From: Bacillota bacterium | GTDB taxonomy: Bacteria > Bacillota > Sulfobacillia > Fermentithermobacillales > Fermentithermobacillaceae | Assembly (NCBI GenBank): GCA_012841065.1 | Contig: DUVI01000029.1 | Span: 20,394-84,393 of the forward strand | DNA length: 64,000 nt | Reading direction: 5' to 3' | Shown: positions 6,935-64,000 of the stretch, piece after piece | Numbering within the stretch: position 1 is the first letter of the stretch | Layout: the number at the start of each line of letters is the position of its first letter | Program-made: the position numbers and the translations under genes | Notes under the pieces: generated by a model | The model's input: the letters and a program-made list of their open reading frames with translations, nothing else | Told to the model about the DNA's origin: nothing | Database searches by the model: none

Positions 6935-7001
6935 GTGTGTCGCCCCCCAACTTGTGACAAGTCAAACACCATGCGAAGCGCTCTTAAAGTCAATTATACC
7001 C

Positions 7002-7892
7002 TTACACCATGAGATCAAGAATCCTTTGCTTAGAAAACCCTTCCAGCTTGAGGCGGGCAGAAGCTACATCCAAGAGTGCGTCTAAGGGAACCAGCCCGAT
7101 TAGTTCCGAGTCTAGGATTGCCACCCCTCTGCTTGCTGCTTCCTCCTCAATTTTGCTGAATACAAGTTCCATCGAAGTAGACCGGTAGTCCAAAAGGTTC
7201 ATGGTAACCTGGGCAAGCCCTGTCTCGTCTATTGTTATCCCCATAGCTTGAACGTGTGGAAGGCCGCCTGACGACTCCCTTATGCGCCTGGCAATGGCAC
7301 GTGCAATTTTCACGTCACTTGTATTGAGGTTGACGTTGAATGCGATAAGAGGAGGTCTTGCGCCAACGGCAGTAGCTCCTGCCCTTGGATGGAGCTCACC
7401 CGGTCCGAAATCGGGTTTCCTGTCAGGGTCTGTCTTGATAGCTTGTTTGAGCCCTTCATATTCGCCTCTTCTCACATCAGGCAGTCGCACCCGATCCGGC
7501 CTTGTAGCAGCTTTTGCGTAAAGATACACAGGTATGCCCAGTTCCTCACCTATCCGCTTTCCCACACCTTTGGCCATCGCCACACAGTCTTCCATGGTGA
7601 CTCCCTGGATGGGAACAAAGGGTATCACATCGGTGGCACCTATCCTGGGATGTTCACCGTGGTGTTTTTCCATGTCTATAAGTTCACTTGCCCTCTTTGC
7701 GGCACAAAATGCCGCCAGTTCAACATGTTCAGGCACCCCGATAAAGGTGACGACCGAACGGTTGTGGCTGGGATCCATGGATGCATCCAGTACGTTACAC
7801 CCTGAGGCTTTGATTACCGTGACTATCTCATCTAAGAAAGATTGATCTCTACCTTCGCTGAAGTTGGGTATGCATTCGACTATCTGTTTCAT
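7002..7892 (-). CDS. ftcD: Glutamate formimidoyltransferase
   Basis: IVECIPNFSEGRD...DPSHNRSVVTFIG...HPRIGATDVIPFVPIQGVTMEDC...; typical formiminotransferase. Confidence 0.95.
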   Translation of the reverse strand: MKQIVECIPNFSEGRDQSFLDEIVTVIKASGCNVLDASMDPSHNRSVVTFIGVPEHVELAAFCAAKRASELIDMEKHHGEHPRIGATDVIPFVPIQGVTMEDCVAMAKGVGKRIGEELGIPVYLYAKAATRPDRVRLPDVRRGEYEGLKQAIKTDPDRKPDFGPGELHPRAGATAVGARPPLIAFNVNLNTSDVKIARAIARRIRESSGGLPHVQAMGITIDETGLAQVTMNLLDYRSTSMELVFSKIEEEAASRGVAILDSELIGLVPLDALLDVASARLKLEGFSKQRILDLMV

Positions 7893-8020
7893 ACCTCCAC
7901 CCTCCTCATGGACGATTGTTTAAAGAGCGTCCCAACCGGCCTACGTTGGCTGACAATAACCAACCGGGTTCTTGATCAATCACCAAGTAGTTCCACAAAC
8001 ATCCCGTGCATCCCATAAAG

Positions 8021-9550
8021 CTACTTAAGGGACCCAATCGCCTGTGCCACCGCCTTCTCCAAGGCACCGGTGACAATCAGGTTTCTCGCCTGTGCTATAT
8101 CACGGTGCATCTCCCTGTCCTCATTAAGCGCGGGCACCTGGCTACGCAAGAGATCATAAGCAGCCCTGCCCGCCTTGGACAGGAGTCCCGGCCCTCTGAA
8201 CCCAAGCGCCTGGCAGGCTGCAAGATACTCAATTGCCAGGATATGCGATACGTTGTCGCAGATCTCCTTAGCTTTTCTGGCAGCAGTTGCAGACATGCTC
8301 ACATGGTCCTCCTGGTCAGCTGAGGTTGGAATAGTATCAACGCTGGCAGGATGGGCCAGTGACTTGCACTCAGACGCCAGGGAAGCCGCGGTGTACTGCA
8401 TGATCATAAAGCCCGAGTTGAGTCCCCCATGTTCTGTGAGGAAAGATGGCAGTCCCGTCTTGTTGCCATCCATCATCCTGGCGGTTCGCCTCTCAGACAT
8501 GTTGCCGAAGGAACACAGGGCTAAGCCCAGGTAATCACCGGCAACTGCCAGGGGCTGGCCGTGGAAGTTGCCTCCTGACACCACCCTGCCATCAGGCAAG
8601 ACCAGCGGGTTGTCTGTGGCAGAACCCGACTCGATTTCAACCACTGAAGCAACGTGATCCAGGGCTTGCCGCACAGCGCCGTGGACCTGGGGAATGCAAC
8701 GCAACACGTAAGGATCCTGAACTCTTATCTCCCCGGAAGCCGTTGCCAATTGCGAGCCCTCAAGCAGTGCCCTGAGGTTTTCCGCCACTGCCTGTGCTCC
8801 TGCGTGGGGACGCAATGTTGTAATCCATGGGTCAAAGGCGTCTCTTACCACTCTCAAAGCTTGCCCGGTCAGGCTTGCAATTATGTCAGCTGCCTTGGCT
8901 AAGGTATATCCCTGATGTACCGCCAGGCCAAGTACCGCGGCGGTTATCTGGACGCCGTTTGTCAGAGCCAGGCCTTCCTTGGCCTCAAGCTGAACCGGGG
9001 CAATCCCGGCACGGTCAAGCGCATCCTGCCCTGAAAGCAATTCACCTTCATAGAACGCATAGCCCTTCCCCAGCAACACTAATGAGATATGTGAAAGGGG
9101 AGCCAGGTCACCGCTGGCTCCTACTGAACCTTTCTGGGGCACAAACGGCACAACGTTTTTGTTCAAGAGACTACAAAGGGTTTGAACCACCTCGGGCCGG
9201 ATACCTGACATCCCCTTGGCAAGGGCATTCGCCCGGAGGAACATTGCTGCCCGCACTTCGGGTTCCGAAAACTCCTCACCCACACTTACTGCATGGCTCA
9301 ATACCAGGTTAGCTTGGAGTCTACTTATGTTTTCGATTGATATGGCGACGTCAGCAAACTTCCCAAATCCTGTGTTTATTCCATACACCCCGTTGTTTTC
9401 GGATATGATGTGTTCGATGATTTGCCGCGAAGCTTGCATTTTATCCCATGTATCCTGAGGAATCTCAACCTGTTCTCTGTCAAACGCTACCCTGGCTATT
9501 TCCTGGATTGCCTTGGGATTTCCGTCTACCGCAATCGTCATGAATACCAT
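8021..9550 (-). CDS. hutH: Histidine ammonia-lyase
   Basis: MIO-forming ASG in GSVGASGDLAPLSH; GINTGFGKFADV; typical length (509 aa). Confidence 0.97.
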   Translation of the reverse strand: MVFMTIAVDGNPKAIQEIARVAFDREQVEIPQDTWDKMQASRQIIEHIISENNGVYGINTGFGKFADVAISIENISRLQANLVLSHAVSVGEEFSEPEVRAAMFLRANALAKGMSGIRPEVVQTLCSLLNKNVVPFVPQKGSVGASGDLAPLSHISLVLLGKGYAFYEGELLSGQDALDRAGIAPVQLEAKEGLALTNGVQITAAVLGLAVHQGYTLAKAADIIASLTGQALRVVRDAFDPWITTLRPHAGAQAVAENLRALLEGSQLATASGEIRVQDPYVLRCIPQVHGAVRQALDHVASVVEIESGSATDNPLVLPDGRVVSGGNFHGQPLAVAGDYLGLALCSFGNMSERRTARMMDGNKTGLPSFLTEHGGLNSGFMIMQYTAASLASECKSLAHPASVDTIPTSADQEDHVSMSATAARKAKEICDNVSHILAIEYLAACQALGFRGPGLLSKAGRAAYDLLRSQVPALNEDREMHRDIAQARNLIVTGALEKAVAQAIGSLK

Positions 9551-9576
9551 GCTCCTTTGGCCGCCGATTTCAGCAT

Positions 9577-11235
9577 TTACTCTAGCATCGGGATCTTTAT
9601 ACCCTTTTCCTTTGCAGTCTGTATAGCTTTTTCGTAGCCTGCATCAGCGTGGCGCATTACACCTGTCCCAGGATCAGTAGTCAGAACCCTTTGCAGTTTG
9701 GCTGCAGCCCGCTCAGTACCGTCCGCCACTACTACCATGCCGGCATGGATCGAGTAGCCGATACCGACACCTCCACCATGATGCACCGAGACCCAGCTGG
9801 CACCTGCCGCAGTATTGAGCAGCGCATTGAGGATGGGCCAGTCAGCAATGGCGTCTGAGCCGTCTTTCATCGATTCAGTTTCACGGTTGGGAGAAGCTAC
9901 GCTTCCGCTGTCCAGGTGATCCCTGCCAATGACTATAGGCGCCTTGACCTCGCCTTTTCTTACCAATTCATTGAAGAGCAGCCCCGCTTTGGCCCGCTGG
10001 CCGTAACTCAGCCAACATATCCTTGAAGGAAGCCCCTGGAACTGTACCTTCTCCTGGGCCATCTTGAGCCACCTGATCATGCTCTCGTTCTCAGGAAACG
10101 CCTCGATGAGGGCTTCGTCTGTGCGGTAAATGTCGGTAGGATCTCCGGACAACGCCACCCATCTAAAGGGACCACTGCCTTCGCAGAACATCGGACGGAT
10201 AAAAGCCGGTACAAATCCAGGAAAGTCAAACGCATTTTTCAATCCTGCTGAAAACGCCTGCTGCCTTATGTTGTTGCCGTAGTCAAACACGATTGCGCCC
10301 TTCCGCTGCCAGTCGAGCATGGCCTGAACGTGAACCACCACGCTTTCGGTAGCCCTACGTATATACTCATCAGGATCGCTCCCGCGTAAAGCATACGCTG
10401 CTTCCAGAGTCATGCCTGCCGGAACGTACCCGCCAAGCAAGTCGTGGGCTGACGTCTGGTCGGTCATCAAATCAGGTACCACGCCACGTTGCACAAGTTC
10501 AGGATGGACTTCTGCCGCGTTTCCCAGCACCGCCACTGACTTGGGCTCACCTTTAGCCAAAGCATCTTCAACGACCTCAAGGGCATGATCCAAATCCCTT
10601 GCAAGCATATCGCAGTATCCGGTATCCAGCCGGCGCTGGATCCGCCAGGGATCAACCTCTACAACCAGCGCTACGCCTCCGTTCATGGTGATAGCAAGGG
10701 GTTGAGCGCCACCCATGCCTCCCAATCCTGCGGTGACCACCAGCTTGCCTTTAAGGCTACCGCCAAAGTGCTGCCTTGCTGCTTCGGCAAATGTCTCGTA
10801 GGTGCCCTGTAGGATTCCCTGAGCACCTATGTAAATCCAGCTCCCTGCAGTCATCTGCCCGTACATGGTGAGCCCCTGCCGCTCAAACTCACGGAACTGT
10901 TCCCATGTTGCCCATGCTGGAACCAGCAACGCATTAGCTATGAGCACCCGTGGCGCGATTTCATGTGTCTTGAAAATCCCCACAGGCTTACCTGACTGCA
11001 CAAGAAGGGTCTCATCACTCTCAAGTTGCTTAAGGCTCCTGACAATAGCGTCAAACGCTTCCCAGTTGCGTGCTGCTTTGCCTGTGCCACCGTATACTAT
11101 CAGTTCGTCAGGTTTCTCTGCCACGTCAGGATCAAGGTTGTTCATGAGCATCCTCATCGCCGCTTCCTGTTCCCAACCTTTACATGACAAAGCCGGCCCT
11201 CTCGGTGCCCTCACCGTACGCTTTGCCATTTTCAA
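9577..11235 (-). CDS. hutU: Urocanate hydratase
   Basis: 552 aa; [17 protein letters not shown]...; [26 protein letters not shown]; typical HutU. Confidence 0.97.
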
Positions 11236-43081: not shown

Positions 43082-44905
43082 GTGGTACCTGTGGCAGAGC
43101 ACATCTTGTTCGCCGACGCAGGAACTACGTTTACCAAAGTCAGCCTGCTGGAACGCAAGGGGAACACATGGCGCGTCCGCGAAAGGGCTTGGGCGCCCAC
43201 TACCGTTGACTCCCCGTATTCCGATGTGATGATAGGGCTTAGGCGGGCTATCACTAAGTTGGAAACGTGGGCGGGGGTCAAGTTGCTCTCTCAGAACCAC
43301 CTGATTTCCGAAACAGGAAAGCATCAGGGAGCCCGCGAGTTTATGGCAACGTCCAGCGCCGGAGGCGGGCTTCAGGTGTTGGTTGCAGGGCTGACCGAGC
43401 AAATCACCGCCGAGTCGGGCCACCGGGCAGCTCTGGGTGCAGGCGCTGTGGTTACAGAAGTGCTGTGCCTGAACCAAGCTACTACCGACTTCAAAACCTT
43501 AGAACGCATTAGTAACGTGCCATGCGATATGATACTGCTAACGGGCGGAGTGGACGGCGGAAACATTTCAGACGTGCTCACCCTGGCACAGCTTCTGGCT
43601 CTGGCAGCCCCCAAGCCGCGGTTTGGCGCCCAGGGGAAGAAGATCCCTTTGGTTTACGCAGGTAACATAGATGCCCGCAACTACCTGGAGAGTATAGTCG
43701 GCGATTCAATGGAGCTTATTTGCATCGACAATATCCGGCCTACCATGGAAACTGAATTGCTCCACCCTGTCCGGCATGTGATCCAGGAAATATTCCTCAA
43801 ACATGTGATGTCGGGCGCGCCGGGTTTCAGGAACCTGGCGCTTTGGGCACAAGACAGGGTCCAACCTACACCTGTAGCTGTGGGCACAGCGCTCACTCAG
43901 TTTGCACAGCATGACAACCGCAACATTCTTGCCGTGGATGTGGGAGGCGCGACAACCGACGTGTTCTCTGTAATTGACGGCCGGCTTTACCGGAGCGTGT
44001 CTGCCAACGTGGGAATGTCATACAGTATGGGTAATGTGTTGGAACAAATAAGTCCCGATATGATTATTCGATGGTTGCCGTGGATACAAGATGACGGGGT
44101 TATCCGCAACTGGCACCTCAACAAAATGATACGTCCTTCAACATTACCTCAAACGCCCGAGGAACTGGTGTTAGAGCAGTGTTTTGCCAGGGAAGCGGTG
44201 AGGCTGTCCCTGAAGCACCATCGCTCAATTGTCACCGGCCTCAAGGGCGTAAAAATATCAAGACAGATAGGAGATATCTTCACCCAGCACGGCACAGGCC
44301 ACACCCTTGTAAACCTAATGGCAACCGGTGCCATAGTAGGTATGGGAGGCGTCATCGCCAATGCGCCCCGCCTAAGCCAGGCTGTGTCTATCATGCTCGA
44401 CGGAATCCAACCTGAAGGAATAACAGACATTTTCATCGATGAAGGTTTATTCTTGGCGTGCGGTGGGCTTGTTTCAGCAGAAAATGACGGCCTGATGAAA
44501 CCTGTTCCAGGAATTGGAGCACCTACCTTTGCCGGGACATGCATTGCACCTGTGGGTCCTGATGTAAACCCGGGCACAGTGATTGCAGAAGTAGACTATG
44601 GCGGCTACACCTACAATATCGTTGCCGGAGAGATCTCAGTTGTGCCTCAGGTAAATCCTCCGGACGGTTCCCTTCATGTAGAGATTTCAGTGCAACCGAA
44701 CAAACGCTTCGACGTGGGCGCAGGCCAGGGCCATCCTGTAACTGCAAAGCTTGCGGCTAGCAGAATGGGCTTGATCCTGGACGGCCGGGGACGGCCGGTC
44801 GCCCTGCCCAAGAATCCGGAGCAGCGCGTGTCCAGACTCAGACAGTGGTATAAAGCCCTGGGCATATATCCCGACAAGGTCTTAGGCATTGGGGGGAATG
44901 ATTAG
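43082..44905 (+). CDS. GlmL/MutL-like actin-fold ATPase
   Basis: LFADAGTTFTKVSLLE; LLTGGVDGGN; LAVDVGGATTDVFSVIDG; glutamate-mutase-L family organisation. Confidence 0.82.
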   Translation: MVPVAEHILFADAGTTFTKVSLLERKGNTWRVRERAWAPTTVDSPYSDVMIGLRRAITKLETWAGVKLLSQNHLISETGKHQGAREFMATSSAGGGLQVLVAGLTEQITAESGHRAALGAGAVVTEVLCLNQATTDFKTLERISNVPCDMILLTGGVDGGNISDVLTLAQLLALAAPKPRFGAQGKKIPLVYAGNIDARNYLESIVGDSMELICIDNIRPTMETELLHPVRHVIQEIFLKHVMSGAPGFRNLALWAQDRVQPTPVAVGTALTQFAQHDNRNILAVDVGGATTDVFSVIDGRLYRSVSANVGMSYSMGNVLEQISPDMIIRWLPWIQDDGVIRNWHLNKMIRPSTLPQTPEELVLEQCFAREAVRLSLKHHRSIVTGLKGVKISRQIGDIFTQHGTGHTLVNLMATGAIVGMGGVIANAPRLSQAVSIMLDGIQPEGITDIFIDEGLFLACGGLVSAENDGLMKPVPGIGAPTFAGTCIAPVGPDVNPGTVIAEVDYGGYTYNIVAGEISVVPQVNPPDGSLHVEISVQPNKRFDVGAGQGHPVTAKLAASRMGLILDGRGRPVALPKNPEQRVSRLRQWYKALGIYPDKVLGIGGND

Positions 44906-46283
44906 CATGGCCATGTTTTCTCAGATAATCGTAAGACACAACACCAGGTTGCTTAAGGCGCGGACCCTCCCCTCCCCCGGAAAGATCCTGGTAAAGCCGG
45001 GAGATGCTGTAGGGCCTACTGCAATCATCGCCAAGACCGACTACCTCCGCGAATCCCCGAGGGTAGTAGACCTGAGAGCAGAACTCAACACTCCTGTCTC
45101 CCCGGACCTAGTGGACTCCATTGTGCTGAAGCAGCCCGGCGACTCAGTTAAGACCGGTGAGATAATAGCAAGTCTGCCTGACGGTGAATCGGGCGGCAGG
45201 CAAGTGCTTTCGCCGTGTGACGGGGTAGTCCGATATGTATCCAGGTTAGATGCGAGAATTCTTATCCGCGAAGACGCAGATTCTATGAAACCCATGTGCG
45301 TAGTGCCTGTGAGTCGCATTCTGAAGTCCAACCCGAAATGGCTCAGGACCCATGTGACAGTCAAAGAGGGCCAGTATGTAAGAGAGGGCCAAATCATCGC
45401 CGGCTTTCCTGAACCCGGCAATCCTGTAGCAGTCTATGCCCCCATCAGCGGCGTCATAGCAAGGATTTGCCCCAGGACGGGCAATGTGACCATAGTAAGG
45501 CCCATGGAAACCCTGAAAGTGACTGCCCTCGTACCCGGCCGGGTAGCCAAAGTCCTGCCTCATATGGGGGCGGTGGTTGAAAGTTACGGGTGCTACCTGG
45601 AAGGGGTATTCGGCGCAGGCGGCGAGTGCCACGGCCGGCTCTGGGTTATGACCCAAAGCCCCGGAGATATTTTGGATGCATCGGATGTTGGCCCTGAAGT
45701 CGACGGCAAGATAATCGTGGCAGGAGCGGGAGCTACATATGAAGCGATAGACAGTGCACTGCACTTTGGCGCCAAGGGCATCATAGCAGGAGGGCTCAAC
45801 CAGAAAGACGTCGCCAGGATTTCCGACTCAGATGTTGCGCGAAACCATAGATGTGCTTTGATCATGATGGAAGGAGCAGGGTTCATGCCGATGAATCACC
45901 GGGCATGGGCCGCATTGTGCCAAAATCACGGCAACGTAGTCTCAATCGACGGCACTAGCCGGCTGTCGGGAGAGCTTGTACGTCCCTGGATTTTCACAGG
46001 AAGGTTTCCTGACGACAGCGTACCTGACCACGAACTACGCGAAACAGGCACTGAGTTCAAGAGGGCCGCGCCGGCAATGAGAAACCAGGTGCAACCAGGC
46101 GACAGGGTCAGATGTGCGAGACAACCGTACTTCGGGCTCTGGGGGGTTGTAGAAGAAGTAATACCGGGGAGAATACCCCTGGAATCTGAAGGGCTGATGG
46201 AAGCGGTGAGAGTCCGTCTGGATGACGGTTCTCTGGTACAGGTGGCAGAGGCTAACGTTGAAGTGGTGGAACAAGGCGCGTGA
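44889..46283 (+). CDS. Uncharacterised protein with repeated barrel-sandwich-like (biotinyl/lipoyl-hybrid-like) segments
   Basis: KILVKPGDAVGPTAIIAKT, KQPGDSVKTGEIIASLP, VLSPCDGVVRYVS, TVKEGQYVREGQIIAGF, VYAPISGVIARI; start overlaps the GlmL-like gene. Confidence 0.65.
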   Translation: MGGMISMAMFSQIIVRHNTRLLKARTLPSPGKILVKPGDAVGPTAIIAKTDYLRESPRVVDLRAELNTPVSPDLVDSIVLKQPGDSVKTGEIIASLPDGESGGRQVLSPCDGVVRYVSRLDARILIREDADSMKPMCVVPVSRILKSNPKWLRTHVTVKEGQYVREGQIIAGFPEPGNPVAVYAPISGVIARICPRTGNVTIVRPMETLKVTALVPGRVAKVLPHMGAVVESYGCYLEGVFGAGGECHGRLWVMTQSPGDILDASDVGPEVDGKIIVAGAGATYEAIDSALHFGAKGIIAGGLNQKDVARISDSDVARNHRCALIMMEGAGFMPMNHRAWAALCQNHGNVVSIDGTSRLSGELVRPWIFTGRFPDDSVPDHELRETGTEFKRAAPAMRNQVQPGDRVRCARQPYFGLWGVVEEVIPGRIPLESEGLMEAVRVRLDDGSLVQVAEANVEVVEQGA

Positions 46284-52384: not shown

Positions 52385-53470
52385 TCAGTCTGTGCCGCTT
52401 AAGGTTATCTCTGACCGATGATACCCTGGTAGTGTGCCGGCAGTCTCATCCAGATGAACTTCCTCCGGCATATCGCCCACGAGTTCCTCGAGCAAGTCGT
52501 CCATGGTTACTATGCCGACAGGTGTCTTTCCCTGGACTACTACGGCCAGATGCACTTTCATCCGCTGCAGCCTGGAGAACACCGACAGGAGGTTTTCCCC
52601 GGCCATCACCTGATGTACCGGACGCATCACTTGGGTAACAGACAACGCCTTGTTCTCGGGGTTAGAAACAACCTCACGCACTACATCTTTAATATATGCA
52701 ACACCTATAACTTGGCCGCCGGCTTCAGAAACCACTGGAATCCGGCTGTACTTGTGTGAATCGAACAGTTCCACGGCTTCCCACAAGGTAACACCGGGCT
52801 TATAAGCTACCACATTATCCCAAGGTTGCATTATCTCCGCCACAGTCTTGCTTCTGGAGCTAAAGACGCTGTCAATGACATCCTTATCCTCCGGTGTTAC
52901 ATACCCGTCTTCTTCGGCGATTTCGAATATCGCCAGCACCTCTGATTCCGGTTCTCCGGCAACCCCTTTGTCATCCCGTGAAAACACAGAAACGAGAAAC
53001 GCCGGAACTGCTGCCATCACATATGCCACGGGGCTCAAGAGCTTCACCGCAATTCCAAGCGGGATAGACACAGCCAGAGCTGACTCAGTTGGAGCGTTAG
53101 CTGTGTAAGTCTTGGGAATCAGTTCTGAGAATATGAACACAATGGCTGTGGCAAGCAGCGATACAACAGTCACATGGATCGGCCTGTTGAAGCCCAGGGA
53201 AACAGCGATTGACAGTGCGCTCACCGAAACCAAGATCGTGAATACGTTAGTGCCTACCAGGAGTGCAGACACTGTGTTTTCGGAATTCTCCTTAAGTTCC
53301 TGGAGTATACGTGCCCTCTTGTCACCTTCGTTTGAAAGGCTGCTTATGACCCACTTATCCATTGCCAAGAAAGCAGTCTCTGCCCCTGCGAAAAACCCTA
53401 CGGCCAGAACGGATATGACCAGCGCGCCACTTCTCAAGAGCACTGAAACGATCGGAATGTCAGCATTCAT
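52385..53470 (-). CDS. CNNM/CorC-like DUF21-CBS hemolysin-family transporter (copy A)
   Basis: FFAGAETAFLAMDKW; FSELIPKTYTANAP; CBS pair (EIMQPWDNVVAY...; VTQVMRPVHQV...). Confidence 0.92.
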   Translation of the reverse strand: MNADIPIVSVLLRSGALVISVLAVGFFAGAETAFLAMDKWVISSLSNEGDKRARILQELKENSENTVSALLVGTNVFTILVSVSALSIAVSLGFNRPIHVTVVSLLATAIVFIFSELIPKTYTANAPTESALAVSIPLGIAVKLLSPVAYVMAAVPAFLVSVFSRDDKGVAGEPESEVLAIFEIAEEDGYVTPEDKDVIDSVFSSRSKTVAEIMQPWDNVVAYKPGVTLWEAVELFDSHKYSRIPVVSEAGGQVIGVAYIKDVVREVVSNPENKALSVTQVMRPVHQVMAGENLLSVFSRLQRMKVHLAVVVQGKTPVGIVTMDDLLEELVGDMPEEVHLDETAGTLPGYHRSEITLSGTD

Positions 53471-54777
53471 GATTGTCCGGTTTCTCCCTCAATTCTTTCT
53501 ACCAGTACCTTGTTAATTCTAGGGCCCTTTACCTCTTCTATGGTGAAACAGACTTTCGGTTCGATAAGGCAAAAGGCGTCGCCCGGCACCGGTACCCTGT
53601 CAAGGCATGTCATCACAAGGCCTGCCAAGGAGTCACAGTCTTCAGCGTCGATCTCAAGGCCTGTAAAGTCCTCAAGTTCCACCAGGCTGATACTTCCGGG
53701 TACCCGCCATTTCCCATCGCCTACCACTACATATTCATGATTTTCAGAATCATACTCGTCCTCTATGTCTCCGACGAATTCTTCAATCAGGTCTTCGATG
53801 GTTACCAGCCCTGAAACGCCGTCATACTCGTCTACAACAATTGCCATGTGTACTCCCAACGCCTTCATTTCATTCAGGAGATCAGACACATTCTTGCTTT
53901 CAGGTACAAAATGCGGCGCAACCGCAAACTGGCTGACGGGAATGTCAGCCAGAGCGCTCCCCCAGTCTGAGGGCCTTTCTCTGAGAAACCTCGCCAGAGA
54001 CTTGATATTTGCTATGCCGGTGATGTTATCCCTTGACCCATGATAAACAGGGATCCGTGAAAACCCTTCTTTTAACATGAGGTTAAGAGCCTCAAGCGCA
54101 CTTGCGTGCTCCTGTATAGCTACCATTCTTGGGCGTGGAACCATAACTTCGGATACGTCAATATCCCGGGAGTCTATAACCCCGGTGATTATCTCTTTTT
54201 CAGTACAGCTTATAGCTCCGACGTCCTCCCCATACTCGAGAGCAGCCATTACCCTGGCTTCGGACATCTCCTCCAAGTACGCTGAATCATGGGCGGGCTT
54301 TGGAAGCAACCATGAAAACACAGCAGCCGCTTTCTCCAATATGCTTGTAAAAGGCTTCATGATGAGTTGCAGCCACGAAAGGCTTCCCGCAACCTTTATT
54401 GCAATGCCCTCGGGGTTTGAGCCCACCAGGAGTTTCGGGGTAATCTCGCCAAACAGCAAGATCAGAACGGTGCCGAACGCAACTGACACGACCTCTGCTA
54501 ACCCCTTTGATTTGGGAAGCAAAGCGTAGACAATGACGGTGAATGTGGAAGAGAACAGGATGTTCACAAGGGTATTGCCAAGCAAAACACTCGAGAGCAA
54601 TGAATTGGGGTTCTTTTTCAAGTGGAGAACTTCTTGAGCCCTCTTGTTCCCAGGATACTTGCTCTTAAGTTTTACTTCATCCGAGGAAAATATGGCGCTC
54701 TCTGAGCCCGAGAAGTATGCAGACAACACCAGACAAAATAAAGCTACAAGGTAACTACTACCTCCGGGGTCGTCCAC
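53467..54777 (-). CDS. CNNM/CorC-like DUF21-CBS-CorC_HlyC transporter (copy B)
   Basis: YFSGSESAIFSSDEVKLKSK; LLFGEITPKLLVG; CBS (VSEVMVPRPRMVAI); CorC_HlyC domain (DGKWRVPGSISLVELEDFTGLEI). Confidence 0.95.
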   Translation of the reverse strand: MDDPGGSSYLVALFCLVLSAYFSGSESAIFSSDEVKLKSKYPGNKRAQEVLHLKKNPNSLLSSVLLGNTLVNILFSSTFTVIVYALLPKSKGLAEVVSVAFGTVLILLFGEITPKLLVGSNPEGIAIKVAGSLSWLQLIMKPFTSILEKAAAVFSWLLPKPAHDSAYLEEMSEARVMAALEYGEDVGAISCTEKEIITGVIDSRDIDVSEVMVPRPRMVAIQEHASALEALNLMLKEGFSRIPVYHGSRDNITGIANIKSLARFLRERPSDWGSALADIPVSQFAVAPHFVPESKNVSDLLNEMKALGVHMAIVVDEYDGVSGLVTIEDLIEEFVGDIEDEYDSENHEYVVVGDGKWRVPGSISLVELEDFTGLEIDAEDCDSLAGLVMTCLDRVPVPGDAFCLIEPKVCFTIEEVKGPRINKVLVERIEGETGQS

Positions 54778-54968
54778 TCATTATCACCTTCCGACAATGT
54801 ATATTTTGTTAGCGGGTGTCACCTATATCTTAACTCGTAAGTAACCGTCTGGCAATATGTTTCACTGGACGGACCGGCCTCACACGGTGCGCAATCAGGC
54901 ATTTGGGGACGTATCCTGGGAGCGATTTGTAAACTAATCAGGATCGTCCCCAACATTTTAGGTCAAGT

Positions 54969-55589
54969 TCACTTGATCAGCCCGACCCAATCCCCCAGCA
55001 AGAACTGCATTCTGCCGAGGAACAGCGATACACGCGCCATGACCGTGTTGCCGAAAGCCGCTCCAAACGCGAGCATCATAACCCAACGGCCCACGCTGGA
55101 TATCTTACCCTGGACACCCTTCTTCTCAACTGTGAACAAGAAGTACACCAGAGCGCTGAACGTACCAACGATGTAGAGAATGTTTGATACGCTTTGCCAC
55201 CAGTCACCTGCAACCCAAAGCGGCAGGAAAGTTGCACGGATCTGGTCTATGAACATCGGCTTGAACTGCGTAGTCAAATAGTACGCTGAACCAATTCCCA
55301 ACAGGAAGCAGATGTGGTAACGGCTAATCCATGCAATGGGCCTCACATACCTGGTGTAGATCATGAGGCCAATGAGTACGGGGAAAATGTACCACCATTT
55401 GCCTTCCTGCATAATTCTCAACTGGATACTCGGCCTGATATACTGGAACCACTGCAACGCCACCGTATAACCGGCATACAGGCCTACATAAGTGTTCTCA
55501 GCAAACCTGTACAGAGGGTTATCTTTGAACACCACTGAAAGCAGCAAGATTGTGAAAATTGCGTTAAGCCAAGTGCCCAACAATTCCAC
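54969..55589 (-). CDS. Uncharacterised polytopic membrane protein, paralog of the 63311-63889 product
   Basis: Multiple TMs; C-terminal VSNILYIVGTFSALVYFLFTVEKK...GRMQFLLGDWVGLIK aligns by eye with the 63311 ORF. Confidence 0.82.
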   Translation of the reverse strand: MELLGTWLNAIFTILLLSVVFKDNPLYRFAENTYVGLYAGYTVALQWFQYIRPSIQLRIMQEGKWWYIFPVLIGLMIYTRYVRPIAWISRYHICFLLGIGSAYYLTTQFKPMFIDQIRATFLPLWVAGDWWQSVSNILYIVGTFSALVYFLFTVEKKGVQGKISSVGRWVMMLAFGAAFGNTVMARVSLFLGRMQFLLGDWVGLIK

Positions 55590-55632
55590 TGGGATTCACC
55601 TCCTGTCGTCAATCCAGGCCAAAGTTACAAGG

Positions 55633-56457
55633 TTATTTCTCCTTCTCCCGGGTCAAAAGATAACCCACGTTCCCTAAGATGATGAAGATTATGATTAGCG
55701 CGTGTGAGAACGACTGCGCGTCCATACCGGCTGTCGCACTGCCCGGGTTGCCAACCAGGAGCTCGTACTCAGCTGCTCCCTTCATTCCAAGCACAGCCGC
55801 ATGGACCTGGCCGGCCTGAATCAGCGGCATTAGCTCAGGAACGCTCACTGATATGGTTGACACAAGCAAAGGCTTGTTGTGAGGCGATGTCACGTGTGCA
55901 ATATATTGCCTTTCACCCGGGGTTCCGGTAACAAATATGAACACCGCGTCGACGTCCTTGAGGGTCGCCACTTCTTTCATAAGAGGCAGGGTGTTCAGGT
56001 CATTGCCGTAATGATCCACGCCAACGGCCGCTTCGTAGATGCTGGAAAGCATCTTCTGCAAGAGCACTTCGTTGCCGGGTTTGTAACCTACGTTAACCCA
56101 GTCGACGCCGTATTTCTTGTCGGGGAACTCTTCCTGAACAATTGAGAAAGCAGTGTCTGCCATGTCGCCTGCCATTACCCACATGCCAGCGCAGACGAAC
56201 CGCAGGTCTTTCCTGAATCCCTGCCTTACCAGTGACTGAGCTGCCGGCATCAGTTCAGGGATTCCGCCTGCCGAAAAGTCAAACCCAAGGTATACCATGC
56301 TACCTGGCTCTAGGGCTTCGATAAAGTCGTATACCTTTTGGGTTTCTGCAGAAGGAACAATAGCTAGCCCAACAGGTTTTATGAGAGACAGGGCGATTAT
56401 GAGAATCATCAGGGCGTATATAACCCGCCTGTCGATGTTGGCTAGTTTCTCCCACAC
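55633..56457 (-). CDS. Uncharacterised protein with terminal TM helices and a soluble central domain
   Basis: N-terminal TM (VIYALMILIIALSLIKPVGLAIV), central alpha/beta-like region, C-terminal TM (ALIIIFIILGNVGYLL). Confidence 0.82.
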   Translation of the reverse strand: MWEKLANIDRRVIYALMILIIALSLIKPVGLAIVPSAETQKVYDFIEALEPGSMVYLGFDFSAGGIPELMPAAQSLVRQGFRKDLRFVCAGMWVMAGDMADTAFSIVQEEFPDKKYGVDWVNVGYKPGNEVLLQKMLSSIYEAAVGVDHYGNDLNTLPLMKEVATLKDVDAVFIFVTGTPGERQYIAHVTSPHNKPLLVSTISVSVPELMPLIQAGQVHAAVLGMKGAAEYELLVGNPGSATAGMDAQSFSHALIIIFIILGNVGYLLTREKEK

Positions 56458-56478
56458 AATGATTCACCTCCTCCACTA

Positions 56479-57114
56479 TTACTCACCGGTACCCCCAAGG
56501 TGCGCACGTTCAATTCCAACAAGAATTCTCAAAGCAGTTGCAATACCACCAAGGGTAGCGCCGATTTGGATGCCCCGCATACCCGCAGAGTTGGGCACGT
56601 TCAAAATCCAAGCCGAAGCGTCTTGAATCCAGTCCCCGAGCAACACCGAGCCAAGGGGTACCTGGCCGAGCATCATCACTATAGCGGCAAGCAACAGCAC
56701 CGCAGCTTCTGCGTTTCTGACCCTAAAAGCTCTATAGGCAGCAGCGCCGATATAGAACACCAAGGTGGAGTAAACGGTAGCGTTCATTGGCGCAATCAAA
56801 TTGTTGTACATGAATTTCCAGCCGTCATGGTCTGCACTCTTGGCAATAAGGATGCCGAAGAGAGCCATTCCGAACATGCAGATCATGAGCCATAGGCTGT
56901 AGAACCAGCCTTCGCGCTTTTGCTGGACCCGCTTGCCGTGAATCTGGGTCAGGTTGACGACACCCACTGCAACGGCCCAGGCAGACACGACCAAGAACCA
57001 GTCGTCGACGTAGTTCTTTGCCGTTGCAAGGGCGTCAATGCCACCTAGAAACATGGCTGCCACTATTAACAATCCAAAGGCTAATCCAAACAAGATCGGC
57101 AATTCTTGTTTCAA
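56479..57114 (-). CDS. Uncharacterised polytopic membrane protein
   Basis: About six hydrophobic segments; same strand and tightly spaced with neighbours. Confidence 0.82.
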   Translation of the reverse strand: MKQELPILFGLAFGLLIVAAMFLGGIDALATAKNYVDDWFLVVSAWAVAVGVVNLTQIHGKRVQQKREGWFYSLWLMICMFGMALFGILIAKSADHDGWKFMYNNLIAPMNATVYSTLVFYIGAAAYRAFRVRNAEAAVLLLAAIVMMLGQVPLGSVLLGDWIQDASAWILNVPNSAGMRGIQIGATLGGIATALRILVGIERAHLGGTGE

Positions 57115-57179
57115 TTGGTTTCCCCCCTCCCGTTAGGAGTTACAAGTATGAATCTAAGCCAGGTGTGGTTGTCACAAAC

Positions 57180-57962
57180 TTATTTACCCATGATGTCGGT
57201 TAGGAAAGTGATGTTGAACGTCCTCAAAATGACGCCAAGCACTATGCAAATGGCTGCGAACATCTTGCCCCAGTCTTGGACGATGATGCTGCCCATGAGA
57301 ATGGGTTCTCTGGTGAGGTATGCGCTTGCCGCGTAGAGTTCCTCGCCTATAAGGCAATAGTCACAAGCTGCAACGAAGAATGGAATCTGGTGGGTGTTAG
57401 CAGTACCTGCAATCTGGATTGCGCCGGCCGTAGCGCCAACTTCTGCGAAGACCAGCGACTCGGCCCAGAAACCACCGAGAAGCAGGTTGGCTGCAGGCTT
57501 CTCCCTGTACATAATTCCCGTTACGCCGGTGGCGTAAGCGAACTGGTCTTCGGAAATGAAGCGTACGTTCTCTACCTTAAAGTTCTGGAGTTTGCCTTCC
57601 TGGATAAAGGCCTGCCTTACGATTTCTTCCGAGATAGGATACACTACTGTTCTTCTGTTGGTTACGATGATGTCAGTGTCGTACTTTGCGCACTGTGCTG
57701 CCACATAGCTCAGGATAGACAGTCCTGCCAGGGTCTGGGCATCATCAACGCCTGCGATACCCGGCGAGAAGTGCAGGGGCCTGCCCATCTCAGTGCACCG
57801 TCCGATGGCCTCGTCCATGGCTTCGAGACCCGGAACCTGATACAGCTCAGGAATCTTCATGCCTTTCCGCGCCCTACCAATCATCATCAACACGGCTATG
57901 CAGTAGATCAGTAGTGTAATGAAGGAAAATACCTGCCCTTGTGCAATCGTCATTGTTTTCAC
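57180..57962 (-). CDS. Uncharacterised membrane protein, possibly DUF6754-like
   Basis: N-terminal TM, central conserved-looking GIAGVDDAQTLAGLSILSYVA...DIIVTNRRTVVYPI...GFWAESLVFAEVGATAGAIQIAGTANTHQIPFFVAACDYCLIGEELYAASAYL, C-terminal TM(s). Confidence 0.78.
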   Translation of the reverse strand: MKTMTIAQGQVFSFITLLIYCIAVLMMIGRARKGMKIPELYQVPGLEAMDEAIGRCTEMGRPLHFSPGIAGVDDAQTLAGLSILSYVAAQCAKYDTDIIVTNRRTVVYPISEEIVRQAFIQEGKLQNFKVENVRFISEDQFAYATGVTGIMYREKPAANLLLGGFWAESLVFAEVGATAGAIQIAGTANTHQIPFFVAACDYCLIGEELYAASAYLTREPILMGSIIVQDWGKMFAAICIVLGVILRTFNITFLTDIMGK

Positions 57963-58321: not shown

Positions 58322-58552
58322 TGAGAATAGTAGAAGAGCCCGGGATGCACAGAAAGTGAACCAGTAGCTGAAAGGTTGACCTTCCACACTCTTCGAACCC
58401 GCTCACGAGGCTATAGGCGATGAGTCTATCGGAACCCCACCGTTACCCGGGGAGATGGCTGGCAGGCCATCGTTTTAAGGGGCACAATGCCCGAACTAAG
58501 GTGGTACCACGGAGACAAACCTTCGTCCTTAACGGACGGAGGTTTTTTTGAT
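58322..58552 (+). promoter_or_regulatory. T-box leader, apparently tRNA-Pro responsive, upstream of proline biosynthesis genes
   Basis: T-box sequence AAGGTGGTACCACGG (about 58498-58512) with TGGT able to pair with ACCA; candidate specifier GAA-CCC-G at 58395-58401; intrinsic terminator ACCTTCGTCC-TTAAC-GGACGGAGGT plus TTTTTT at about 58519-58549. Confidence 0.88.
58519..58549 (+). terminator. T-box-controlled leader terminator
   Basis: 10-bp stem (one G-T pair) followed by a run of T, immediately 3' of the antiterminator sequence. Confidence 0.85.
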
Positions 58553-58591
58553 GCTTGGGGGTGTGCTTTAACAGTGAACAAAGCAACAACA

Positions 58592-60295
58592 ATGAGGAAC
58601 ATTAAGGAAATGAACGGCACGCAAATTGGGTTTATCGGAGCAGGCAACATGGCCACAGCCATTATCAAGGGCCTTACTTCATGCACAAATGCGCCAGGTC
58701 CCAAAATGACGGTGATAAACAAGAACAACCGCAACCGGATTTCATACCTTTGCGGCACATACGGCGTTACAGCCGCCAAGAACTTCGAGGAACTGATGAC
58801 GGTATCAAACATAATCATACTTGCCGTAAAGCCTGACCAGACACCGGAAGTGCTGGAGGCTATATCAGGTCTGGTAACCGAAGATCACCTGATAATTTCA
58901 GTTGTAGCAGGTATCACCATAAACGCCGTTGAAAACTGCTTGAATCAGAAAGCCCCGGTAGTACGGGCTATGCCCAATACCCCCGCCCAGGTCGGCGAAG
59001 GGGTATCTGTGCTCTGCGGAAGTCACCGGGCGACCGATGAACATAAGGCGCAGGCGGAAGCTGTGTTCTCTTCTGTGGGGAAAGTTTTCTGGATGGACGA
59101 GATCTATATGGATGCAGTCACGGCATTGTCAGGCAGCGGTCCTGCGTACTTCTACCGTTTGGCGCAGGAGATGACCGAGGTAGCCGTTGAAATGGGGCTG
59201 GAAAGGCAACTGTCTGAGAAACTGGCCCGTCAGACCCTGATAGGAGCAGGTTACCTACTGAAGTGCACTGACTTGACGCTCAAACAACTCATTGACCAAG
59301 TTGCTTCCCCTAACGGCACCACTGAAGCAGCGCTCAGGGTGTTTGAATCAAACGGACTCGGCCTCTTGGTGGAAGAAGCAATGGGCAAAGCGCTCCGCCG
59401 GTCAGAGGAGATTTCTGCAGCATACTCAGAATCTGAAACCACAAAGCGTACTGCCATCACCAGGGCCATAAGAGTGATAATCAAGATCGGTTCGTCAACT
59501 GTCACCGACGAAAACGGGATGTTCAACGAAAAATTGCTCAGAGGTATCGTCGAACAAGTATCGTCCCTCATGGCAGAAGGCCGGGAAGTGGTAATCGTCT
59601 CGTCGGGAGCCATGGCGGCAGGCAGGGGCCGGATAGGCAAGGAAAAAGGTTTTTCCATTACCGAAAAGCAGGTGCTGGCTGCGGTAGGCCAAGGGCTCCT
59701 CATGAGAAGCTATGAAACCCTGTTTGAAGAGTACGGGCTCACTGTGGGGCAGGTGCTGCTAACCAGGGATGACTTGGGAAGCCTCAAACGTTCAGCTCTT
59801 TGCAAAGACACCCTGGAAGTCATGCTTGGAAGGGGGATCATCCCCATTATCAACGAAAACGACACCGTGGCTGTAGAAGAAATACGGTTTGGCGATAACG
59901 ATACCTTGTCAGCAAGGGTCGCCGTATTGATTAACGCCGACTTGCTCATCATGCTTACAGATACAGACGGGTTTTACGACAAAAACCCCCGCATCCACCC
60001 TGACGCCCGGCTCATCACTACAATCAGGAATATTGACGGCAATATCCTGGCTATGGCAAAAGGAACCCACAATGCAGACGTAGCTACCGGAGGGATGATA
60101 ACCAAGGTGTGGGCTGCCAACATGGCACTGGAACACGGGATCCCGACGGTAATAGCCAACGGAAGCAGGCCCGGCGTACTCAAATCGATCCTTGAAGGCA
60201 AGTTGATAGGCACCTTGTTCGTAGAAGACAAAGCATTTCAGGGGCACAAACCCGAAAACGCAGCAGCAGGAGGAGAAATACATGACAGTGATTGA
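58592..60295 (+). CDS. Fused pyrroline-5-carboxylate reductase (ProC) - glutamate 5-kinase (ProB)
   Basis: ProC half: IGFIGAGNMATAIIKG...VRAMPNTPAQVGEGVSVLC...ALSGSGPAYFYRL...QVASPNGTTEAALRVFE. ProB half: IRVIIKIGSSTVTDENG...REVVIVSSGAMAAGRGRIG...IPIINENDTVAVEEIRFGDNDTLSARVAVLINADLLIMLTDTDGFYDKNP...GTGGM-type site (VATGGMITKV). Start is 58592 or 58610; the track start at 58487 lies inside the T-box. Confidence 0.93.
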   Translation: MRNIKEMNGTQIGFIGAGNMATAIIKGLTSCTNAPGPKMTVINKNNRNRISYLCGTYGVTAAKNFEELMTVSNIIILAVKPDQTPEVLEAISGLVTEDHLIISVVAGITINAVENCLNQKAPVVRAMPNTPAQVGEGVSVLCGSHRATDEHKAQAEAVFSSVGKVFWMDEIYMDAVTALSGSGPAYFYRLAQEMTEVAVEMGLERQLSEKLARQTLIGAGYLLKCTDLTLKQLIDQVASPNGTTEAALRVFESNGLGLLVEEAMGKALRRSEEISAAYSESETTKRTAITRAIRVIIKIGSSTVTDENGMFNEKLLRGIVEQVSSLMAEGREVVIVSSGAMAAGRGRIGKEKGFSITEKQVLAAVGQGLLMRSYETLFEEYGLTVGQVLLTRDDLGSLKRSALCKDTLEVMLGRGIIPIINENDTVAVEEIRFGDNDTLSARVAVLINADLLIMLTDTDGFYDKNPRIHPDARLITTIRNIDGNILAMAKGTHNADVATGGMITKVWAANMALEHGIPTVIANGSRPGVLKSILEGKLIGTLFVEDKAFQGHKPENAAAGGEIHDSD

Positions 60296-61523
60296 CAAGG
60301 CAAAACTCGCCAAGCAGGCATCGAATCTACTGGCAGCTATGAGCCCGGAGGCGAGAGCCAGGGGTTTGATGTACATGGCCGATGAGCTGGAAGCAGGACA
60401 GTCTCAGATATTAGAAGCTAATCAGGAGGACCTGGATGCTGCCGACAAGGCAGGCATTACCGGAGCTATGCGTAAGCGGCTTGCCCTCTCAGAAGATAAG
60501 ATCGGCCGGATGGCACAAGCTCTCAGGCAGATAGCCCTGCTTCAAGATAACCTGGGCAAGACGATCCAGATGATCACCCGCCCAAACGGACTGACCATCA
60601 AGAAGGTAAGAGTGCCGTTCGGGGTGATAGGCATCATTTATGAATCCAGGCCCAACGTTACCGCAGACGCTGCAGGGCTTTGCATCAAATCCGGCAACGC
60701 GGTGATCCTCCGTGGAGGCAAGGAAGCGCTCAGAAGCAATACTGCCATTACCGACAGGCTGCGGTCAGGACTGGACAAAGCCGGAATCACCCCTGAATGT
60801 ATTCAGTACGTAGACAATCCGGACCGCTCAGAGGTACACACCATGATGAACCTAAGGGGATTAATCGACCTCCTCATCCCCAGAGGCGGCCCCGGTTTGA
60901 TCAAGGCCACCATAGAAAATGCAAGCATACCCGTTATTGAGACAGGCGTGGGCAATTGCCACACGTACGTAGACGCCGCAGCTGACCTGGAGATGGCTCA
61001 TTCGATTGCGGTGAACGCCAAACTAAGCAATCCCGCAGTGTGCAATGCCATGGAAACCTTATTGGTCCACGAGAGTATAGCAGACAAGTTCCTGCCCAAA
61101 TTAGCCCGGGACCTGGCTGCCCAAGGCGTAGAGCTCAGGGGCTGCCCGAAAAGCCGGGAGATCGTCGCTTTTCTGGAACCGGCCATGGAAGAAGACTGGC
61201 ATACAGAATACCTGGACCTAGTGCTCGCCATAAAGATTGTGTCCGGGGTCGATGAAGCTATAGAGCACATTTCAACATACGGAACCGCCCATTCGGAAGC
61301 GATAGTCACCGAAAATCCTGACGCGGCCGCTAAGTTCACCCGGTCGGTAGATGCAGCTACGGTTTATGTAAACGCCAGCACGCGCTTTACCGACGGCGGC
61401 GAATTCGGCTCTGGTGCTGAAATGGGTATCTCAACCCAAAAACTCCACGCCAGAGGCCCCATGGGCATCAATGAACTGATGACGTACAAGTACGTGGTAG
61501 AAGGTACAGGGCAAGTCCGATAA
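60282..61523 (+). CDS. proA: Gamma-glutamyl phosphate reductase
   Basis: VRVPFGVIGIIYESRPNVTADAAGLCIKSGNAVILRGGKEA; LIDLLIPRGGPGLI; TRFTDGGEFGSGAEMGISTQKLHARGPMG. Confidence 0.97.
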   Translation: MTVIDKAKLAKQASNLLAAMSPEARARGLMYMADELEAGQSQILEANQEDLDAADKAGITGAMRKRLALSEDKIGRMAQALRQIALLQDNLGKTIQMITRPNGLTIKKVRVPFGVIGIIYESRPNVTADAAGLCIKSGNAVILRGGKEALRSNTAITDRLRSGLDKAGITPECIQYVDNPDRSEVHTMMNLRGLIDLLIPRGGPGLIKATIENASIPVIETGVGNCHTYVDAAADLEMAHSIAVNAKLSNPAVCNAMETLLVHESIADKFLPKLARDLAAQGVELRGCPKSREIVAFLEPAMEEDWHTEYLDLVLAIKIVSGVDEAIEHISTYGTAHSEAIVTENPDAAAKFTRSVDAATVYVNASTRFTDGGEFGSGAEMGISTQKLHARGPMGINELMTYKYVVEGTGQVR

Positions 61524-61684: not shown

Positions 61685-63274
61685 CTAGCGTTTCCTCAAG
61701 ACCTTACCTGGCCTGAGGCCTGTACACTCACCCTCCCAGATTACAGGCCAGCCGTTGACGAACACCCCGAAAATCCCCGAAGGGAACTGCCAGGGCTTTT
61801 GGTATGTGCTGTTATCGATAACCGTATCGCTGTGGAAAATCACAACATCAGCGGCAAGTCCTGCTTTTAGCACGCCCCTGTCGCGGATATGCATCTTAGA
61901 AGCAGGCAAAGAAGTCATCTTCCTGATTGCCTCTTCCATGGTCAGTACTTGCTTCTCTCTGACATATCGGCCGAGCACCCTGGGATAGGTGCCAATGCTT
62001 CTGGGATGGATATTCCCTCTCGCCTCTGTTGCCACGTGACCGTCGGTCACAAAGCATACCCTGGGATGCTTCATGGCCGCTGTGAGGTCGTCTTCGCTCA
62101 TTGAATGCCTGATTATGGATACGCTCATCTTGTTGCTGGCCAGGATGTCCAGGGCTTCCTCCTGAGGCGGTTTTCCGGACTTGCGTGCAATCTCGTCCAT
62201 ATTAAGTCCTTCCATCCACTTGTCTGCGGGGTTTTCTACCGAAGTAACAACGATCTTATCCCATCCCCCCTGCTTTTCAGTGCGGGCATGGGACTCGGCA
62301 GCTATCCGCTCACGCACAGGGCTGCCCTCTAACAGCAAGTCTACTGCTGCAGCTTTGCCCTCTCCCAACACCCAGTCAGGCAACACAATGGCAAGTTCAG
62401 TGCTGGAAGCCAGGTATGGATATACATCGGCGGAAATGTCTATGCCCCGGGCATTCGCCTCATCAAGCATCTCCAAAACCTTGGGAAGTTTGCCCCAGTT
62501 GTCTTCCCCTACTGCTTTGAGGTGGGATATCTCAAACCTCACACCGGTCTTTTCAGCGACTTCCATTGCTTCCTGGACTGCTTCAAAAAGCGCAGGGCCT
62601 TCGTTGCGCATGTGCATCGAATGGATGCCGTTAGCTTCTGCTACAGGTATTGATACGGTTGCCAGCTCATCCACATCTGCGAACCTGCCCGGTACATATT
62701 CAAGCCCGCTTGACACGCCAAACGCGCCTGCCTGCATCTGCCCTCGGGATATCTCGAGCATCTTGTGTTTTTCCTCAGGTGTGGGTTTCCTGCCTGAGTT
62801 TCCGAGCACTTGCACCCTTACATCGCCATGGCCAAACAACATGGCAAGGTTGACTGCAGGCTTCACTTGCTCCACTGCACGTAGAAACCCGTCAAAATCG
62901 TCCCAACTCACTCCAAGTTCCAGATACTTATCCCGGTTTGTGTGCTTCTCCGAAGACGTTCCACCGGCGCTGCCTCCACAATTGCCTCCCACAGAAGTTG
63001 TAATCCCTTGCTTTATGAGACATTCGGCCTCGGGATGAAAGATTATACCCCCGTCTGAGTGGCTGTGGATATCTATGAACCCCGGTGAAGCGCAAAGCCC
63101 TGTGCAATCGTACTTGACTGTCTCAGCCGGGACAGCTAAACTGTCTATCCGTCCGGCTGCGACAATCTCGCCGTTGCATATCAAAATATCGCCTGATATG
63201 GGTGGAGCGCCTGTACCGTCATAGATTGTCAGGTCTTCTAGGAGGAAACAGTTTGCTGCCTTGACTTGTTTCAT
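61685..63274 (-). CDS. D-aminoacylase / N-acyl-D-amino-acid amidohydrolase family protein
   Basis: LLEDLTIYDGTGAPPISGDILI; APGFIDIHSHSDGG; EISHLKAVGEDNWGK; DISADVYPYLASST; CFVTDGH; LKAGLAADVVIF. Confidence 0.9.
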   Translation of the reverse strand: MKQVKAANCFLLEDLTIYDGTGAPPISGDILICNGEIVAAGRIDSLAVPAETVKYDCTGLCASPGFIDIHSHSDGGIIFHPEAECLIKQGITTSVGGNCGGSAGGTSSEKHTNRDKYLELGVSWDDFDGFLRAVEQVKPAVNLAMLFGHGDVRVQVLGNSGRKPTPEEKHKMLEISRGQMQAGAFGVSSGLEYVPGRFADVDELATVSIPVAEANGIHSMHMRNEGPALFEAVQEAMEVAEKTGVRFEISHLKAVGEDNWGKLPKVLEMLDEANARGIDISADVYPYLASSTELAIVLPDWVLGEGKAAAVDLLLEGSPVRERIAAESHARTEKQGGWDKIVVTSVENPADKWMEGLNMDEIARKSGKPPQEEALDILASNKMSVSIIRHSMSEDDLTAAMKHPRVCFVTDGHVATEARGNIHPRSIGTYPRVLGRYVREKQVLTMEEAIRKMTSLPASKMHIRDRGVLKAGLAADVVIFHSDTVIDNSTYQKPWQFPSGIFGVFVNGWPVIWEGECTGLRPGKVLRKR

Positions 63275-63310: not shown

Positions 63311-63889
63311 TTACTTAATAATGCCAAGCCAGGTTCCGAAAATGTTCTGAAGGAATCCAAGGTAAGTCGCAGTGTTGGCTGCAACCGACGTAGCAAATGA
63401 CAACCCGAAGGTGACCATCATGAGATATATGCCAGTCTTGCCAATGGCTTCAGTGTTCTTCCTCGGTTTAACGGTAAAGAGGAAGTAATACGTGACGCAG
63501 AAGGTACCCACGACTATTATGATGTTGCTTACCGAATTGAGGGGGAGCATTGTAGCCGCAACCTGCGAGAAGAGCTGTCCGCTGATAGTGCTCCTGAGGA
63601 TTATGCCCGCCCCTAATCCGATGGGAAACGCCAGAGCAATCCGGCTAAGGTATTCCAGCTTCGGTATGAACTTGGTGTAAAGCAGGGCTACCAGCACTAA
63701 CGGTATAATGAGCGTCAGCCGCTTTTCCTGGAACAGCATCAATCCCTGGGACAGCCTATTGGAAATCATTGCTTCATGTGAGTTCGAGAAAGAAAAGAAG
63801 TAACGTGTTTGTGAGGTGTCTAAGTGCCCACCACAATAGCTGTGCTGCGAAGATTTCAGACTGTTAGTCGAAAGCACCTGATGTTCCAC
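63311..63889 (-). CDS. Uncharacterised polytopic membrane protein, paralog of the 54969-55589 product
   Basis: LTLIIPLVLVALLYTKFIPKLEYLSRIALAFPIGLGAGIIL...SVSNIIIVVGTFCVTYYFLFTVKPRK...YLGFLQNIFGTWLGIIK matches the 54969 ORF by eye; N-terminal about 30 aa look unlike the paralog; GTG start uncertain. Confidence 0.72.
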   Translation of the reverse strand: MEHQVLSTNSLKSSQHSYCGGHLDTSQTRYFFSFSNSHEAMISNRLSQGLMLFQEKRLTLIIPLVLVALLYTKFIPKLEYLSRIALAFPIGLGAGIILRSTISGQLFSQVAATMLPLNSVSNIIIVVGTFCVTYYFLFTVKPRKNTEAIGKTGIYLMMVTFGLSFATSVAANTATYLGFLQNIFGTWLGIIK

Positions 63890-64000
63890 GATTGTCTCCC
63901 TGTTCTATGCAATCGTCTTCTGGTATTTCCTGGCTTCATTTTCAGGTCGCTTGGTTCCTAACCGCTTGTTCCTCGCTTCTATGAACACTCAACATATGAT

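Follow-up and report, generated by a model that had tools for sequence, protein, structure and literature searches.

A conserved four-gene membrane cassette with a DUF6754 protein and a MutL-type ASKHA ATPase as proposed partner in Bacillota, candidate phyla and archaea

Described members of the MutL/GlmL family (PF13941) of ASKHA ATPases are encoded beside genes of B12-dependent glutamate mutase, not beside transporters. In the system reported here, a member of this family is linked instead to a putative membrane complex encoded by four genes, which were named A, B, C and D in order of transcription. Protein A is a full-length member of the uncharacterised Pfam family DUF6754 (PF20539), for which literature searches gave no paper, function or structure; Pfam is silent on B, C and D and on the link to MutL and its companion, Lip. 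By analogy, the system may resemble the ECF transporters in having few shared cytosolic energising sets and many specificity cassettes beside catabolic genes. It is not an ECF member, however: no Pfam or NCBIfam match to an ABC ATPase, EcfT or S-component is found in A–D, the whole cluster, an ABC ATPase is not a regular companion of ABCD in the loci read, and the ATPase is of ASKHA type, with four membrane subunits per cassette. Assemblies of the PilM-PilN-PilO/GspL type also combine a cytoplasmic ASKHA fold with membrane partners, but A–D have no sequence match to them and the cassettes are variable and multi-copy. Lip shares an RnfC_N-type barrel-sandwich with the N-terminal domains of RnfC and NqrA, but Rnf/Nqr membrane subunits are absent and Lip gives no Pfam match to the Fe-S or NADH-binding domains of RnfC. 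To our knowledge, no known system joins an ASKHA ATPase to such a four-subunit membrane module.

The window, a stretch of 64,000 nucleotides from a Fermentithermobacillaceae genome, contains one complete cluster, which had been singled out in a preliminary description as four minus-strand genes with gaps of 43, 21 and 65 bp. The ORF coordinates agree, the gaps being 65 bp between A and B, 21 bp between B and C and 43 bp between C and D (Table 1). A purine-rich, Shine-Dalgarno-like stretch can be read in the sequence 5′ of B, of C and of D. The start codon of gene A is probably the ATG at 57953 and not the GTG at 57962, given that the former is where most homologues begin. The hairpin downstream of D is nearly perfect (arms TTGGGGACGATCCTG...CAGGATACGTCCCCAA) and has no T-run; its arm has two weaker matches elsewhere in the window, and an Rfam search near the cluster, hairpin included, gave no element. 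It is possibly a transcript end or the remnant of a mobile repeat. Downstream of ABCD, two neighbouring CNNM/CorC-type (CBS-domain) membrane proteins are encoded with a 4-bp overlap (52385-54777, minus strand).

Table 1. Positions in the window of the ABCD cluster, its proposed partners and nearby features
Feature	Position	Strand	Description
Gene A	57180..57962	-	DUF6754 protein; N-terminal TM, Rossmann-like domain, C-terminal TM
Gene B	56479..57114	-	211 aa, about 6 TM; no family
Gene C	55633..56457	-	TM, Rossmann-like soluble domain, TM; no family
Gene D	54969..55589	-	206-aa polytopic protein, at least 5 TM; no family
Hairpin	54903..54953	-	Between D (directly downstream) and the CNNM/CorC genes; -24.8 kcal/mol, z -4.6
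MutL-family ASKHA ATPase, proposed partner	43082..44905	+	PF13941, 4e-98, 329.5 bits
Lip, proposed partner	44904..46283	+	About 460 aa, barrel-sandwich (RnfC_N-like); RnfC_N, 2e-7
Gene D of second ABCD cassette	63311..63889	-	4.7e-24 to D
Amidohydrolase resembling N-acyl-D-amino-acid deacylase	61685..63274	-	PF07969, 2e-20

The match of A to DUF6754 spans model positions 8-256 of 257 (5.2e-95, 317.9 bits, cut-off 27), so that what had been a guess by eye is borne out. For B, C and D, no family was found above threshold in Pfam, NCBIfam, PADLOC or PHROGs, and the profiles of these four collections place ABCD in no characterised transporter or secretion family, in line with the earlier inspection by eye. 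The TRAP/TTT components DctQ/DctM and TctA/TctB were not matched by B, C or D above the Pfam cut-off, nor did A–D match phage families in PHROGs. Several candidates were rejected. A type VI, type IV pilus or other secretion system was indicated by TssN alone, at noise level (E 0.65, 9.8 bits against a cut-off of 30.3), and anti-phage defence by a best PADLOC match, NDT_II-A, that covers a partial stretch of A (E 0.0036, 15 bits). Weak matches to beta-eliminating lyase and ABC-TMD0 fall under the curated cut-offs and were taken as noise, and profile comparison gives no support for homology of A to C or of B to D.

Hydropathy over alignments gives two TM segments for A, six for B, two for C and at least five for D. 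The polytopic nature ascribed to B and D thus holds; for A and C, the N-terminal TM and the soluble domain stand, but the several C-terminal helices proposed earlier are reduced to one each. In AlphaFold2 models of A (pLDDT 93) and C (pLDDT 96), a Rossmann-like domain lies between the N- and the C-terminal membrane helix. Sequence and fold searches with A and C gave no PDB match at E ≤ 0.001, and the top fold matches were discarded as generic Rossmann-like or spurious. The positive-inside rule gives B an N-in/C-in topology. In A, positive charge follows TM1 (mean of 4.2 K+R in 18 residues), and many homologues carry N-terminal extensions of ∼100 aa with signal-like starts; on these two grounds the N-terminus of A is probably outside and its soluble domain cytoplasmic. 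In WOR-3/Stahlbacteria, TA06 and Coatesbacteria (loci L046, L052, L065, L070, L092 and L102), such extensions measure ∼100-170 aa and look like fibronectin III, a likeness set aside because Pfam gives no match. Both termini of C are rich in K/R, with about three positive charges each, so that its soluble domain is probably extracytoplasmic.

With one genome taken per species, a pattern scan yielded at least 564 DUF6754 loci, the best 80 of which were analysed with profiles of all four proteins. Those in Bacillota come from Fermentithermobacillaceae and Symbiobacterium; other bacterial hosts are WOR-3/Stahlbacteria, Cloacimonadota, Poribacteria, Zixibacteria, Fermentibacteria/Aegiribacteria, Coatesbacteria, Latescibacterota and Sumerlaeota, and the archaeal ones are Bathyarchaeota and Methanomethylicota. 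In every complete locus among the best 80, the genes stand in the order A-B-C-D on one strand, in most with tight packing or overlaps of a few bases; contig-cut, tandem and spaced-out copies are the exceptions. Since gene content and order are identical in all complete homologous loci examined, the cluster is not a product of chance, and the retention of order and strand is the main reason to regard it as a functional unit. The ABCD gene set is, with high confidence, a real system. The synteny check proposed in the preliminary description thus came out in its favor, into the archaea, and its suggestion, a membrane complex of several subunits and of unknown function, is supported by these profile and synteny results. 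Among the matches listed, the closest named relatives of the window copy (67%) are two loci of Candidatus Fermentithermobacillaceae (L037 and L038). Tandem or tail-to-tail ABCD cassettes, up to three in a row, were also seen in Fermentithermobacillaceae, Coatesbacteria, Zixibacteria and further bacteria (L045 2442-8455; L065; L084; L100; L102; L105).

The preliminary description had captured only the membrane half: a MutL ATPase, Lip and a protein of ∼130 aa belong to the system too. These families were brought out by clustering of the genes that neighbor ABCD, and profiles place at least one of the three next to the cassette in 19 of the best 80 of at least 564 loci. The order is small-MutL-Lip-ABCD in Fermentibacteria/Aegiribacteria and Sumerlaeota and ABCD-MutL-Lip-small-MutL(-Lip) in Bacillota and Symbiobacterium. 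Lip measures ∼380-460 aa across loci and the small protein ∼100-130 aa. Among relatives of the window genome, Lip is present in all 45 DUF6754-positive genomes vs. 6 of the 56 DUF6754-negative ones (Fisher p 1.6e-22, computed over genomes regardless of phylogeny). The window genome itself has several MutL-Lip pairs, one of them in the window; on another contig (C75), both MutL-Lip copies flank the small protein. Directly upstream of that MutL-Lip-small-MutL-Lip set, a membrane protein of ∼220 aa and unknown function is encoded (L127 5603-6265), and similar small membrane ORFs occur upstream of ABCD in Symbiobacterium (L042 8268-8792, L044 8396-8848). MutL retains both ASKHA phosphate motifs, DxG[ST]T.TK and DxGGxTTD, and is weakly similar to EutA and Hydantoinase_A. 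Lip is also similar to NQRA_N. Lip has no lysine, as read from the sequence, in the hairpin that would carry a lipoyl or biotin group, which makes a docking role more likely than that of a carrier.

Beyond the single cluster described at first, the module is multi-copy. The window MAG (80.7% complete) contains five intact A genes and, at a contig end, one D gene, whose A-B-C would lie beyond the end of contig C11 (base 84393, window base 64000); the deacylase-like gene is directly downstream of this second cassette. Relatives in the same family have 6-15 ABCD cassettes and one genome of the class has 23. Across the relatives' genomes, ABCD copies range from 1 to 23 vs. roughly 1 to 12 matches for Lip, and genomes with a single ABCD copy often retain the linked operon. 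In a tree built from 77 A proteins, many old orthologous groups are common to several genera, which indicates that the multiplicity is ancient specialisation and not recent amplification. The main A copy of the window groups with copies in three other genomes (G010, G006 and G008) and in genus g2, outside all deacylase-linked groups.

In six genomes of one family, three of them from one genus, N-acyl-D-amino-acid-deacylase-like genes lay within 1.5 kb of a cassette in 11 of 35 cases against 1.3 expected (Poisson P 1e-7), a P value that is optimistic because uniform placement is assumed and half of the genomes share a genus. The protein family was picked after being noticed in two genomes, G002 and G004 supply 8 of the 11 adjacencies, and two truncated cassettes that were added manually, the contig-end D of the window and a copy in G004, account for one adjacency each. 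In the same six genomes, M20 peptidases are weakly enriched (7 vs. 3.0 expected, P 0.03) and aminotransferases, the control, are not (1 vs. 2.0). A Pfam tally of the nearest genes, read by eye, also contains M20, S9, gamma-glutamyltranspeptidase, DUF885 and amidohydrolases, with few of these in genes farther away. Outside the tested family, cassette neighbors vary, and many cassettes, the main one of the window included, adjoin housekeeping genes. The start of the window deacylase has no evident signal sequence; its substrate must therefore enter the cell. Counts of the oligopeptide-binding family SBP_bac_5 show no decrease in ABCD-rich genomes, and a simple replacement of Opp/oligopeptide ABC transporters by ABCD was rejected on this ground. 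Elsewhere in the window, a row of histidine degradation genes (6308-11235, minus strand; formiminotransferase/cyclodeaminase-like, histidine ammonia-lyase and urocanase) is consistent with an amino-acid fermenter. Proline biosynthesis is represented by a 602-aa ORF (58487-60295, plus strand), by eye an apparent fusion of ProC (pyrroline-5-carboxylate reductase) and ProB (glutamate 5-kinase), with ProA (60282-61523) directly after it.

We propose, tentatively and with doubt slightly outweighing belief, that ABCD is a new family of importers linked to an ASKHA ATPase, in which four-subunit cassettes are interchangeable and handle acyl-amino acids or peptides. ABCD would be the membrane core, in which B and D may form the membrane path, C would expose a receptor domain of Rossmann-like fold to the outside and A would hold its own Rossmann-like domain inside. 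An assembly of the cytosolic MutL-type ATPase, Lip and the ∼130-aa protein could dock on the cytoplasmic domain of A and spend ATP to drive or reset transport. Few MutL-Lip sets would serve many cassettes, each specialised for one class of acyl-amino acids or small peptides, and neighboring cytosolic hydrolases would cleave what is imported. Two polytopic subunits with an outer receptor-like domain, an inner domain and a cytosolic ATPase resemble an importer most, and the many specialised cassettes beside cytosolic amide hydrolases suggest one with a partly shared energising module. Against an importer stand the absence of any resemblance of A–D to a known transporter, the usual place of MutL relatives beside B12 mutases, the many cassettes next to housekeeping genes, the undiminished SBP_bac_5 and a deacylase link that comes from one family. 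The broader claim, an undescribed transport class in Bacillota, candidate phyla and archaea that is powered by an actin/Hsp70-fold (ASKHA) ATPase and not by an ABC, V-type or PTS engine, is possible but doubtful.

One conserved operon with an ASKHA protein and both bitopic and polytopic partners would also be expected of a membrane-anchored macromolecular machine for envelope assembly, export or scaffolding, in which an ASKHA ring or filament meets A–D in the membrane, functionally modelled on PilM-PilN/O, GspL or MreB-MreCD. The signal-like extension of A in several candidate phyla fits such a machine, but substrate specificity is a better match to the 5-23 diverged paralogues of a genome and to the link with deacylases, and A–D match no pilin, secretion or cell-shape family, so that we consider it unlikely. 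A membrane-bound enzyme complex, in which A and C use their Rossmann-like domains to hold a nucleotide or substrate and to carry out a catabolic or redox reaction, MutL is a reactivating ATPase of EutA/DdrA type and Lip an RnfC-like docking protein, would account for these folds, for the similarity of Lip to RnfC_N and NQRA_N and of MutL to EutA and Hydantoinase_A, and for the catabolic neighbors. It is likewise unlikely, since inspection of A–D by eye revealed neither a cofactor motif nor an Fe-S cysteine set and no enzyme family is matched.

A sensor in which C detects a ligand outside the cell and A relays the state to cytoplasmic MutL and Lip would agree with a soluble domain on either side of the membrane and with the fact that A weakly resembles CARF and nucleoside-deoxyribosyltransferase folds. 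Such a signalling complex has no conserved output domain, however, and would leave two polytopic subunits superfluous, which makes it improbable. Most cassettes lie apart from MutL-Lip and six genomes have Lip without DUF6754, as would be the case if ABCD alone were a secondary transporter and the co-occurrence reflected shared ancestry or lifestyle; the operonic linkage to MutL-Lip recurs in phyla far apart, however, and this explanation is the most improbable of those considered.

A gene set found in hundreds of loci (at least 564), in many phyla and in archaea, with up to 23 copies per genome and no assigned function, represents a real gap. Even if the importer proposal is false, the question can be put to the test with the defined set of A–D, MutL, Lip and the small protein. 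Should ABCD prove to be an importer driven by an ASKHA ATPase, transport would be powered in a new way, and the feeding of amino-acid-fermenting anaerobes and of uncultured phyla would be easier to explain.
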